A DNA stretch of 39,438 nucleotides from Desulfovibrio sp. (GTDB lineage Bacteria; Bacillota; Dethiobacteria; DTU022; UBA8154): assembly GCA_020060185.1 (NCBI GenBank), contig JAGVAS010000065.1, forward strand, positions 1-39,438, written 5' to 3'. Both the position numbers and the translations under genes were made by a program. This document shows, in pieces, positions 15,215 through 19,665 of the stretch. Under the pieces are notes generated by a model. That model was not told where the DNA came from, searched no databases, and saw only the letters and a program-made list of their open reading frames with translations. The stretch's first letter is position 1; each line of letters starts with the position of its first letter.

Positions 15215-16171
15215 TTGTCAAAAATAGCTATTATCGGGGCTGGATTCGTAGGATCAACAACTGCTTATGCCTTTATGCTGGGTGGGACTGTTCAGGAAAT
15301 TGTTTTAATTGATAAGATAAAAGAAAAAGCACGCGGCGAAGCTATGGATCTGAACCATGGTGCTTCTTTTGTCAGGCCTGTAAACGTATACGCAGGGAAT
15401 TATAAAGACTGCCGTGATGCGGATATTGTTATTATAACAGCCGGAGCCCCCCAGGCCCCCGGCCAATCACGCCTGGAACTGGTGGAAACGAACAGCAGGA
15501 TAATAAAACAAATTGTTTCCAACATCTTGGACTATAATACCGATACCACTTTAATTATTGTAACTAACCCTGTTGATATCATCTCTTACGTTGCCTGGAA
15601 AACTTCCAACCTTTCCCCATCAAGGGTTATAGGCTCAGGAACCGTTCTGGACACCTCGCGTTTCAGGCATCTTTTAAGCGCTCGCTGTGGCATTGATCCC
15701 CGGAATATTCATGCTTATGTCATCGGCGAACATGGAGATTCCGAAGTACCTCTCTGGAGTACAGTAAATATTGCCGGAATATCACTGGATAGGTTTTGCA
15801 CCAGCTGCAATCGTGCCTGCTCCGATGAAGGCAGGGAGGAAATATCCCAAAAAGTACGCCAGGCGGCTTATGAAATTATTGAAGGAAAAGGGGCTACGTA
15901 CTATGCCATAGCTCTGGCTCTACGGAGGATAACAGAAAGTATCCTGCGGGACGAGCACTCTATCTTAACAGTTTCCACACTTATAAACGGAATTTATGGT
16001 TTAAAAGAGCTTTATCTCAGCCTTCCCTGTGTCCTGGGGAGAAAAGGAGTGGAAAACGTTATTCCCTTCGAACTCGACGCTGACGAGAAAGGGCAATTTT
16101 TACATTCGGCAGAAATTATTAAAGGCTACATCCCGGCCGACCTCACTGAAAAACCCATCGAACTGCTGTAA
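15215..16171 (+). CDS. ldh: L-lactate dehydrogenase
   Basis: 318 aa. The TTG start at 15215 has GGAGGG 8 nt upstream. The enzyme interconverts pyruvate and L-lactate with NAD(H). Seen: Rossmann motif GAGFVGS (residues 8-14), Asp33 for NAD binding, Gln80 in the substrate-specificity loop (APQAPGQSR; malate dehydrogenases have Arg here), Arg86, Asn118 (VTNPVD), Arg149 (DTSRFR) and catalytic His173 in GEHGDS. Length is normal. Its last about 40 codons recur, diverged, at 19540-19665 on the far side of the ABC-2 operon. The nickel-pincer genes larC/larE 20 kb away may belong to the same lactate metabolism. Confidence 0.93.
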   Translation: MSKIAIIGAGFVGSTTAYAFMLGGTVQEIVLIDKIKEKARGEAMDLNHGASFVRPVNVYAGNYKDCRDADIVIITAGAPQAPGQSRLELVETNSRIIKQIVSNILDYNTDTTLIIVTNPVDIISYVAWKTSNLSPSRVIGSGTVLDTSRFRHLLSARCGIDPRNIHAYVIGEHGDSEVPLWSTVNIAGISLDRFCTSCNRACSDEGREEISQKVRQAAYEIIEGKGATYYAIALALRRITESILRDEHSILTVSTLINGIYGLKELYLSLPCVLGRKGVENVIPFELDADEKGQFLHSAEIIKGYIPADLTEKPIELL

Positions 16172-16282: not shown

Positions 16283-16312
16283 TTGTCTTTTTATTGCTCT
16301 TGTAGGTAAAAT
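16283..16312 (+). promoter_or_regulatory. Candidate sigma-A promoter of the NEW3-ABC operon
   Basis: TTGTCT at 16283-16288 and TAAAAT at 16307-16312 with an 18-bp spacer. The predicted start of transcription falls near 16319, placing the CIRCE operator in the first bases of the transcript, as usual for HrcA-controlled genes. An alternative pair TTGCTC/TTGAAT lies a few bases downstream. Confidence 0.5.
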
Positions 16313-16322
16313 AAGCTTTGAA

Positions 16323-16349
16323 TTAGCACTCATTAAGGAGGAGTGCTAA
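16323..16349 (+). promoter_or_regulatory. Perfect CIRCE element (HrcA operator)
   Basis: TTAGCACTC - 9 nt - GAGTGCTAA is the exact consensus CIRCE inverted repeat bound by the heat-shock repressor HrcA. It sits 26 nt upstream of the NEW3 gene rather than before groESL or hrcA-grpE-dnaK, its usual locations. No chaperone gene occurs in the window. Confidence 0.92.
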
Positions 16350-16375
16350 ACTTAACCGGCTAAGGGGGCAGAGTG

Positions 16376-17545
16376 ATGTCTATGAACGTCAGATCCAGGG
16401 TGTTAGTGGTTCTTGTAATTATGCTCTTTTTAGTTATGATCATTTCTTCGGCTGCCTATGCACAGCGGGTAATTTCAATTTCCACAACTTTTTCCGGGAT
16501 AGTTGCCATGCAAGGAGAAAAAGTCACCTTTCCTATGAGGGTAGAAAATACGGGTAGCGTGTCAAAAAGTGTTGATCTCCATCTTTCAGATGCACCCGAG
16601 GGATGGCCTGTTTCGTTTACAGGTCACGGATCTGAAATCCACCAGGTTTACGTAAGCGGAAATAGCCAGGAACAATTCAATTTTGAAGTAGAGGTACCTG
16701 AAGATGTTGAGCCAGGGGATTACCGGTTTATCATAGAGGGTCAGGCAGATGGTTTAAAAAGCTCCTTCCCTATTATAATAAGTATTAAGGAGTCCAGGGA
16801 ATCGGTGGCGAACCTTACAACCGACTATCCGGTTCTCAGCGGTCCCAGCGGCACAGAATTCAAATACAGGGTAAACTTGAGCAACAATAGCGCGCATGAG
16901 CAGATATTTAGCCTCTTTGCTGAGGTGCCAACAGGGTGGGTGGTAGTATTCCAGCCTTCTTTCAAAAGCGAGCAGATAGCCTCTATAAGCCTGGACGCTG
17001 GTGCCACACAGGGCCTTGACGTAACTGTAAAAACGCCCAAAATTGTTGAAGCTGGGGAGTACCCAATAAATATCAAAACTGTCGGAAGCCTGACTTCAGC
17101 CTCGCTTGAGCTCAAAGCAGTCATAACTGGAACGTACGATTTAAATGTAACCACCCCTACAGGGCGATTGAATGCGAGAGTAAGGGCGGGAGAGGAAACT
17201 CCCTTGACGCTGCTTCTAGAGAACCGGGGTTCAGCGGAGTTAAGAAATGTAATCCTTTCAGCATCAGCTCCAAGGAATTGGCTGGTTACTTTTGAACCTG
17301 AAAAGCTTGCTCTGATCAGAGCAGGAGAGAGCGTTGAAGTAACCGCTTTCATCAGACCGGATAGCAAAGCCATAGCCGGTGATTATGTAGCTACGTTCAG
17401 GGCCAGGTCTGATGAAACGGCTGCCAGCGCTGACTTCAGGGTAACCATACTGACCCCGACTATCTGGGGTATTTTAGGAGTTGTCGCTGTTATAGTTGTC
17501 ATCTTCGGAATTTTTACAGTATTTAAATTCTATGGGCGGCGGTAA
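16376..17545 (+). CDS. Exported, C-terminally anchored NEW3-domain protein of an ABC-2 system
   Basis: 389 aa from the ATG at 16376 (AAGGGGG 7 nt upstream); a GTG at 16373 is in frame but too close to the RBS. Signal peptide or N-terminal anchor at residues 1-30 ending SAAYAQ. Three Ig-like repeats of about 110 residues follow (about 45-135, 150-245, 260-355) with the NEW3-type pattern: VENTGSVSKSVDLHL...GWPVSF..., VPEDVEPGDYRFIIEG, then LSNNSAHEQIFSLF... and LENRGSAELRNVILSA.... One C-terminal membrane helix (about 363-385) and a basic end (KFYGRR). The protein would be exposed outside, tethered at the C-terminus. NEW3 proteins often accompany ABC-2 operons; the ligand is unknown. Confidence 0.82.
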   Translation: MSMNVRSRVLVVLVIMLFLVMIISSAAYAQRVISISTTFSGIVAMQGEKVTFPMRVENTGSVSKSVDLHLSDAPEGWPVSFTGHGSEIHQVYVSGNSQEQFNFEVEVPEDVEPGDYRFIIEGQADGLKSSFPIIISIKESRESVANLTTDYPVLSGPSGTEFKYRVNLSNNSAHEQIFSLFAEVPTGWVVVFQPSFKSEQIASISLDAGATQGLDVTVKTPKIVEAGEYPINIKTVGSLTSASLELKAVITGTYDLNVTTPTGRLNARVRAGEETPLTLLLENRGSAELRNVILSASAPRNWLVTFEPEKLALIRAGESVEVTAFIRPDSKAIAGDYVATFRARSDETAASADFRVTILTPTIWGILGVVAVIVVIFGIFTVFKFYGRR

Positions 17546-17547
17546 AA

Positions 17548-18495
17548 ATGAGAAACGAAAAAGTAATTGTTACAGATAAGTTAACAAAACGGTATGCTAA
17601 CATTACAGCGGTTGAAAACCTGGATCTTGAGATTTTCAAAGGAGAAATATTTGGACTATTAGGCCCTAACGGTGCAGGCAAGACGACGACCATTCTTATG
17701 TTACTTGGACTAACTGAACCTACTTCAGGCAGTGCTGAAGTATTGGGCTTTGACCCGACAAGAAGCCCCCTGGAGGTAAAGCGTTCTGTTGGGTATCTTC
17801 CCGAGCGTGTCGGTTTTTACGATCACATGACCGGAAGAGAAAACCTGTGCTACATTGCTGCGTTAAATAATATAAACAGCAAAGCAGTGATGAAGAAAAT
17901 TGATGAGTTAGCTGAGCAGGTAGGCCTGAAGGACGCGATAAATAGAAAAGTAGGCGAGTACTCCCACGGCATGAGACAGAGGCTTGGCCTGGCTTCCTGC
18001 CTTGTGAAATCTCCCAAGATAATCATTTTAGACGAACCTACGGTAGGAATTGACCCCAAAGGAACGCGTGAAGTACAGGATTTCATAACACGGTTGAGCA
18101 GGGAAGAAGGCATTACGGTCATCCTGTCATCACATCTCTTGCATCAGGTCCAACAGATTTGTGACCGCGTGGCCATATTCGTTCAGGGCAAGGTAGTCGC
18201 TGCGGGTCCCATTGAGAGTTTAGGAAAACAGGTAATGCCTGGGCAACCATTTATAATTGAGGTGCAGTGTGCTGAAGGCCATGACGTCTTACGGGATAAT
18301 TTGCAGCAAATACAAGGAATTGAGCAATGGAGCGAAGTTGAAGAGAAGCTCGTTCTAACGTGCTGCAGTGACAAGAGATTGGAAATAGCATCGTTGGCTC
18401 AAAAAAATAATCTTTCCCTGTTGCATTTAAGGCTTAGAGGATACGATCTTGACGATATCTATCAACGATATTTCCAAGGGGGAGAAAGGCCATGA
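17548..18495 (+). CDS. ABC-2 transporter ATP-binding protein
   Basis: 315 aa, starts 2 nt after the NEW3 stop. Walker A GPNGAGKTT (about residues 37-45), Q-loop region, signature YSHGMRQRLGLA (SHGMRQ, a common variant of LSGGQ in CcmA/NatA-type ATPases), Walker B IIILDEPTVGIDP and H-loop SSHLLHQV. The C-terminal about 85 residues form the extra domain typical of NatA/DrrA-like ATPases. It energises the permease encoded next, whose ATG overlaps its TGA by 4 nt. The NEW3-ATPase-permease operon is likely controlled through the CIRCE element upstream. Confidence 0.93.
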   Translation: MRNEKVIVTDKLTKRYANITAVENLDLEIFKGEIFGLLGPNGAGKTTTILMLLGLTEPTSGSAEVLGFDPTRSPLEVKRSVGYLPERVGFYDHMTGRENLCYIAALNNINSKAVMKKIDELAEQVGLKDAINRKVGEYSHGMRQRLGLASCLVKSPKIIILDEPTVGIDPKGTREVQDFITRLSREEGITVILSSHLLHQVQQICDRVAIFVQGKVVAAGPIESLGKQVMPGQPFIIEVQCAEGHDVLRDNLQQIQGIEQWSEVEEKLVLTCCSDKRLEIASLAQKNNLSLLHLRLRGYDLDDIYQRYFQGGERP

Positions 18496-19526
18496 GAGAG
18501 AGGAAGTTTAAAATCCTTGAGGGTTGGAAGGTAAGCCGGATTATTAAGCCTTGCTTCAAACTCGTCGCTGAGCTTAAAAGCTCCCCTGGGATGTGGGCAA
18601 TTACAAGCAAGGAGCTTGGAGATCATTTTACCAGCCTTCGCTTCTTTATTATGTTTTTGCTCATTGGCCTGGCCAGCTTATCTGCGGTTTACGTTGCCGC
18701 TCTTACTATTAGAGAAGCAGTAGCGGCAGCCCCTGAGATAGATTTTGTTTTCTTGTGGCTTTTTAACACTTCTGGAAAGGGGCTACCGCCATTTACCACT
18801 TTTGTAGGCTTTCTGGCTCCGCTTATGGGGATAGCACTGGGCTTTGACGCAGTAAATGACGAATTGAATAGAGGAACGATGAGTTCTGTACTGGCACAGC
18901 CTGTCTACCGGGATGCTTTCATTAATGGCAAATTCTTTGCAGGCTTGATAACAACATCGTTGATGCTCATGGCGCTTTTTGCAGTTGTAGGGGGGTTGGG
19001 CCTTATCCTCATAGGTGTTCCTCCTGTTACTGAGGAAGTTTTGCGCATATTATTTTATCTGGTACTCACTGTGGTATATGTAGCCTTCTGGCTCAGCCTT
19101 GCCGTTTTGTTTTCCATTTTTTTTCGACAAACAGCAACATCAGCACTGGGCTGTATAGGTTCATGGCTTTTTTTCACCATTTTTTTTGGGCTACTTGTTG
19201 GCCTGGTCTCCAATGCACTGCTCCCGCTGGGTTCTGATGCTGTACCATTGGAGGTATTAAAGCACCAAAAGCTTCAAACAGGACTTTTAAGGCTCTCACC
19301 TACTACCCTTTACTATGAAGCAGCCGGGATGTTGCTTGCTCCATATCAACGGCTACTCGGACCCGTTATGCTTGAACAGATAGAAGGCGCAATACCCGGG
19401 CCCCTTCCCCTGGGGCAAAGTCTTGCCCTGATCTGGCCCCATTTCGTCGGGCTTTTTGCGGCAACTTTAGCTATATTTGCCGTTTGCTATATAAAATTCA
19501 TGAAGATGGAAATAAAGTCTTCCTAG
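18492..19526 (+). CDS. ABC-2 type permease
   Basis: 344 aa with about six membrane segments. After a cytoplasmic N-terminus (about 1-50) come a hydrophobic helix FFIMFLLIGLASLSAVYVAA, an extracytoplasmic loop, and FVGFLAPLMGIALGFDAVNDELNRGTMSSVLAQPVYRDAFINGKF, the coupling region typical of ABC-2 (ABC2_membrane_2) permeases; four more hydrophobic helices follow. It starts by ATGA overlap with the ATPase gene. Substrate unknown. Fourteen nt after its stop an ldh 3'-end remnant begins, marking the downstream border of the inserted operon. Confidence 0.88.
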   Translation: MRERKFKILEGWKVSRIIKPCFKLVAELKSSPGMWAITSKELGDHFTSLRFFIMFLLIGLASLSAVYVAALTIREAVAAAPEIDFVFLWLFNTSGKGLPPFTTFVGFLAPLMGIALGFDAVNDELNRGTMSSVLAQPVYRDAFINGKFFAGLITTSLMLMALFAVVGGLGLILIGVPPVTEEVLRILFYLVLTVVYVAFWLSLAVLFSIFFRQTATSALGCIGSWLFFTIFFGLLVGLVSNALLPLGSDAVPLEVLKHQKLQTGLLRLSPTTLYYEAAGMLLAPYQRLLGPVMLEQIEGAIPGPLPLGQSLALIWPHFVGLFAATLAIFAVCYIKFMKMEIKSS

Positions 19527-19539
19527 CAAAATTTTCAGC

Positions 19540-19665
19540 ATGGGGGGAAAAGGAGTGGAAAACGTTATTTCCTTCGAACTCGACGCTGACGAGAAAAAGC
19601 AATTTTTACGTTCGGCAGAAATCACTAGAAAAAATATACCGGCCAATTTTGCTTTTGCCAGGTAA
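19540..19665 (+). pseudogene. Diverged 3'-terminal fragment of ldh
   Basis: About 41 codons whose first half is nearly identical to the ldh C-terminal region at 16035 onward: both encode KGVENVI.FELDADEK.QFL.SAEI, after which similarity fades (RKNIPANFAFAR, stop). The fragment lacks everything upstream and begins 14 nt after the permease stop. It shows that the ABC-2 operon lies between two ldh 3' ends, from either a decayed tandem second ldh or a recombination-mediated insertion that duplicated the ldh end. Confidence 0.85.

Follow-up and report, generated by a model that had tools for sequence, protein, structure and literature searches.

A CIRCE operator conserved in front of a NEW3–ABC-2 operon points to HrcA control of a predicted envelope system in uncultured Bacillota

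A perfect CIRCE operator stands in front of a three-gene operon that encodes an extracellular NEW3-domain protein, an ABC ATPase and an ABC-2 permease in the window analysed here, i.e., the whole contig stretch of 39,438 nucleotides. HrcA, the protein that binds CIRCE, is a GroEL-dependent repressor, relieved once misfolded proteins occupy GroEL (PMC3842655, PMC3828012). On the sequence evidence, control of the NEW3-ABC operon by HrcA is very likely, and we hold with good confidence the fuller proposal that the operon is a misfolding-induced member of the HrcA regulon whose products form an envelope stress machine. Features of the locus are collected in Table 1.

Table 1. Features of the NEW3-ABC locus in the window, and the two other CIRCE sites of the same genome
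Feature	Position	Strand	Basis
L-lactate dehydrogenase gene (ldh), upstream, outside the system	15215..16171	+	domain/family search
3' part of ldh, repeated downstream of the operon	16035..16138	+	repeat comparison
Putative sigma-70 promoter: -35 TTGTCT, 18-nt spacer, -10 TAAAAT	16283..16312	+	match, and placement like that of the groES and hrcA promoters
CIRCE operator (predicted HrcA site), TTAGCACTC-N9-GAGTGCTAA	16323..16349	.	pattern match; also present before the G018 and G066 orthologues
Likely ribosome binding site AAGGGGG, 7 nt before ATG 16376	16362..16368	+	sequence reading
NEW3 protein: signal helix, three Ig-like NEW3 domains, C-terminal TM helix, short basic tail	16376..17545	+	domains, structure model
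ABC ATPase	17548..18495	+	nearest solved structures ABCA NBDs, next NosF
ABC-2 permease (PF12679, ABC2_membrane_2)	18492..19526	+	domain search
Degenerate copy of the ldh 3' end, right edge of the apparent cassette	19541..19644	+	104 nt, 87%
CIRCE before groES	contig C68 (L001)		0 mismatches
CIRCE before hrcA	contig C74 (L002)		0 mismatches

The operator, TTAGCACTC-ATTAAGGAG-GAGTGCTAA, has no mismatch to CIRCE, and the exact HrcA site reported in the preliminary description is recovered at the same coordinates. It is the sole CIRCE of the window at up to three mismatches, where dinucleotide shuffles yield a mean of 0.01. The whole draft genome (2.47 Mb) contains three CIRCE sites at the same threshold, each of them perfect, in front of groES, hrcA and the NEW3 operon, while the count of exact sites expected from base composition is about 4e-5 per genome, and a reversed control pattern gives no match at up to three mismatches in this genome. 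Among 98 genomes of the class, true CIRCE is found at up to two mismatches in 98/98, and the reversed pattern in one. A chance match is ruled out by the expected count together with the reversed-pattern control. Absence of hrcA had been named at the outset as fatal to the proposal; the gene is present on contig C74, behind its own perfect CIRCE (PF01628, 1.2e-69), and its product has the full C-terminal domain and the winged helix.

The preliminary description had also placed a -10/-35 pair at the operator. Its placement holds up: the -10 element ends 10 bp before CIRCE, compared with 13 bp at groES, 12 bp at hrcA and 11 bp at the orthologous operon of genome G066. The hexamers themselves are a weak promoter match (9/12) of a kind common in the region. 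CIRCE ends 23 bp before the NEW3 gene, for which GTG 16373 is an alternative start. The upstream ldh gene is co-directional with the operon and ends about 150 bp before CIRCE, and therefore the NEW3 operon is the sole gene set that this CIRCE can serve.

Domain searches bear out the reading of the three downstream genes as NEW3 protein, ABC ATPase and ABC-2 permease, in this order. The NEW3 protein matches PF10633 in three stretches (8e-32), and its structure model (mean pLDDT 85.8) folds into three Ig-like sandwiches plus a TM helix. A PDB fold search with this model retrieved generic Ig arrays only (axoneme proteins, integrins, titin) and gave no catalytic clue; a search by sequence found no solved homologue. 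The ATPase is similar to solved NosF (8e-52), the permease shows faint similarity to NosY (E 0.08), and the ATPase and permease genes share a 4-nt overlap. The NEW3-ATPase-permease order is universal in the family, remote loci of Oceanobacillus halotolerans (L167) and of a Bacteroidota genome included, and is seen in 48/48 homologous loci as far as contig ends allow. The literature searched contains no description of the function of such operons. Taken by themselves, the gene products appear equally compatible with export and with a NosDFY-like envelope machine; judging by domain architecture, a machine for envelope maintenance seems most likely, and export of stress compounds comes second.

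We searched the 98 genomes of the class with the NEW3 protein and found homologues at E <= 1e-60 in 19, the host genome included. Close orthologues beyond the host occur in two genomes only, G018 (same family, other genus; 61% identity) and G066 (other family of the same order; 54% identity). CIRCE in front of orthologous NEW3-ABC operons, which the preliminary description had suggested looking for, is present in both of these species; with at most about two mismatches allowed for a regulon site, the counts are 0 in the window, 0 in G066 and 2 in G018. The G066 and G018 sites are also seen in public records (JAAZDR010000244.1 and CALJJZ010000015.1, respectively), which represent the same genomes. 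Both G018 mismatches fall within the outer TAA of a single arm and leave GCACTC-N9-GAGTGC unchanged; this core is kept in all three sites, and all 18 bases in two of them. A two-mismatch site of the G018 type is expected about 9e-6 times in 400 bp. In G018 the promoter is poorer, and some 185 bp separate CIRCE from the likely start codon (GTG at L006:1459). The upstream regions of the three operons show little likeness beyond CIRCE. With the regulator gene present and CIRCE at both close orthologues, the predicted placement of the operon under the chaperone repressor is well supported.

In a maximum-likelihood tree of 48 NEW3 proteins, the window protein and those of G018 and G066 form one clade with 100/100 support. 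All three clade members, which span two taxonomic families, have CIRCE, and none of the 45 remaining tree members from the class and phylum does; five homologues outside the tree (L167, L168, L182-L184) also lack it, for a total of 50 distant homologues without the operator. The simplest explanation is therefore a single gain at the base of the clade, with subsequent retention. Within the clade the ATPases are 69-72% and the permeases 69% identical, compared with about 40-60% outside it (nearly all full-length pairs). No second, CIRCE-free NEW3 homologue was found in the three carrier genomes, as far as drafts can tell; a homologue of the distant type is frequent in genus-mates of the carriers. 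The combination of CIRCE with a NEW3-ABC operon is known from three genomes only, all of them drafts from uncultured bacteria. A scan of genome contigs with the single protein gave no NEW3 matches, and an alignment-based scan returned the G066 and G018 records and two remote homologues. No more CIRCE-bearing operons were seen among homologues recovered from the classes of the sister-group genomes G099 and G447, and a plasmid search yielded remote homologues only, with 28-33% identity among the matches listed. We also considered CtsR and sigma-B sites as a different link to stress in front of other NEW3-ABC operons, and found only scattered imperfect matches.

The neighbouring genes differ among the three carrier genomes. 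In several genomes of the host family ldh adjoins the V-ATPase D gene, and the same-genus genome G020 has YdjM-ldh-V-ATPase with no operon in between; in the window, ldh is separated from the V-ATPase genes by the operon and an esterase gene. The ldh 3' end recurs as a degenerate direct repeat that begins 14 bp past the permease stop, and over 82 nt this copy is 94% identical to the resident ldh, as compared with 83% for ldh of the same-genus genome G022. The adjacency seen in relatives, together with this copy, makes the operon, its promoter and CIRCE look like an insertion in the host lineage, and the operon thus appears to be an inserted cassette with its own operator. In G018, the operon is flanked by a gene for a SpoIIE-type phosphatase and by genes for a CoA-transferase and an aldehyde ferredoxin oxidoreductase. 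CIRCE moves together with the operon. Bin contamination as the source of the window contig is disfavoured, because the order and sequence of its ldh, YdjM and V-ATPase genes agree with those of same-genus genomes.

Across a broad sample of the class, we sorted most CIRCE sites by the identity of the gene immediately following. With few exceptions, these genes are hrcA, groES, hsp20, htpG and one gene of dnaJ type, so that the initial statement that CIRCE is confined almost exclusively to groESL and hrcA-grpE-dnaK turned out to be too narrow. Since nearly all CIRCE sites precede chaperone genes, CIRCE is a good marker of HrcA targets in the class. Outside this pattern fall the sites of the three NEW3 operons, an orphan in G066, and two sites in G072 and G074; the last two have one or two mismatches, of which about 0.06 are expected per genome, and may be due to chance. 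The NEW3-ABC operon is the sole recurrent non-chaperone CIRCE target among the sites examined.

Several individual sites deserve mention in their own right. Perfect or near-perfect CIRCE in front of hsp20 and htpG is common throughout the class (e.g., L066, L110, L120), making its class I regulon wider than that of Bacillus subtilis, and in G086 (C71; L145 2485-2511) a perfect CIRCE precedes a stand-alone co-chaperone gene of DnaJ type (DnaJ plus DnaJ_C). The fourth perfect CIRCE of G066 (C65; L105 926-952) is accompanied by a minus-strand promoter-like pair and faces about 480 bp with no obvious gene, followed by a gene resembling inositol-1-phosphate synthase; this is possibly a decayed target or a non-coding transcript. 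The one-mismatch site of G072 (C86; L135 2475-2501), 238 bp before a gene for a nucleotidyltransferase-aminotransferase fusion, is possibly a further non-chaperone target, if not a chance match. In G090 (L149, L150; C147, C163), the htpG CIRCE also faces a divergent gene for an ABC-2-type ATPase about 200 bp away, which may reflect shared control or accident.

HrcA binding, stress induction and envelope function, as predicted from these data, would fit together in the following way. In unstressed cells, HrcA, held active by free GroEL, would sit on CIRCE just 3' of the promoter and block transcription. When heat, solvent or another misfolding stress fills GroEL with misfolded proteins, HrcA would be released and the operon transcribed along with groES and hrcA. 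The encoded proteins, three Ig-like domains arrayed outside the cell on a membrane anchor and an ATPase/permease pair of NosFY/ABCA type, would then act as an envelope machine that helps the envelope to withstand the same stress. In a bolder version, which we regard as tentative at best, the operon is a horizontally moving envelope-repair cassette, a NosDFY-like extracellular Ig machine that carries its own CIRCE, plugs into the HrcA/GroEL misfolding sensor of any new host and would thereby be coupled to folding stress in the cytoplasm.

The most serious competitor accepts HrcA control and takes the operon to encode an exporter for resistance or for metabolites, with expression that does no more than follow slow growth or solvent stress. 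We see this as possible, if clearly the less probable account: matches to DrrA-type drug exporters are also seen for the ATPase, with scores under the family cut-off, and clostridial HrcA regulons react not only to heat but also to butanol and butyrate (PMC3828012, PMC8336468), yet the anchored three-Ig protein accompanies the transporter at every one of the 48 loci, to contig ends, unlike the situation in simple DrrAB exporters.

Two further explanations deny the operator a regulatory role, and we give little credence to either. CIRCE might have arrived with the operon and now be decorative, or act as a hairpin that stabilises the mRNA in its 5' leader, HrcA control being weak or lost. Its position within the leader transcribed from the predicted promoter and the drift of the G018 copy by two bases would suit this explanation; however, the exact sequence is kept, beyond what pairing demands, in front of proteins with 54-61% identity, where a hairpin alone would allow compensatory change. 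It is similarly improbable that a rearrangement left the operon behind the CIRCE promoter of a chaperone gene by chance, with no function, so that the three cases amount to one inherited accident. The window operon is indeed an apparent insertion, and a single origin suffices for all three occurrences, but no chaperone gene or remnant of one was found beside any of the three copies, and the retention of CIRCE through deep divergence and in differing genomic contexts calls for selection. HrcA control of an envelope machine remains our preferred reading.

With respect to known systems, the closest is the HrcA/CIRCE class I regulon of Bacillota (groESL, hrcA-grpE-dnaK-dnaJ), with which the window shares an identical operator in an equal position relative to the promoter, and the host an autoregulated hrcA and groES as a co-member; the difference lies in the target, a membrane ABC operon in place of a chaperone gene. 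The regulon is seen as small and nearly all chaperone, and htpG is under CIRCE in Clostridium acetobutylicum and C. cellulovorans (PMC3828012, PMC8336468). Recruitment outside chaperones has precedents in the secreted effector wcw_0502/ctl0271 of Chlamydiota (PMC12038028), in rpoH of Geobacter sulfurreducens (PMC545781) and in the membrane gene CAC2705 of C. acetobutylicum, which uses the groESL site (PMC3828012). These genes, one of them coding for a secreted protein, are unrelated to the NEW3 operon, which, in contrast to CAC2705, has its own operator and promoter.

NosD is a beta-helix protein. NosDFY resembles the window operon in gene order and parts, namely an extracytoplasmic beta-rich protein, a NosF-like ATPase and an ABC-2 permease, but the structure model of the window protein indicates that a TM anchor and three Ig-like NEW3 domains take the place of the beta-helix; the protein is not NosD, and so the operon is not assigned to NosDFY. 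The window genes examined (neighbours include ldh, esterase, V-ATPase and cobalamin genes) contain no nosZ and offer no evidence for a link of the operon to copper. The NEW3-ABC operons of Bacillota and Bacteroidota (L027-L055, L167, L168) have the same three genes in the same order with no CIRCE nearby, the operator being confined to the subclade of the window.

The claim that this regulon member had not been described is consistent with the literature, mostly open-access, in which we found no report of CIRCE with a NEW3 or ABC-2 operon. The regulator, the operon family and non-chaperone HrcA targets as such are all known; what appears to be new is their combination. The alarm raised by misfolded proteins probably also turns on an envelope system. 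If so, the availability of cytoplasmic GroEL would set the level of an extracytoplasmic machine as well, through an operator kept across two families, and the widespread NEW3-ABC operons would gain a regulatory clue that makes the question of their function testable.
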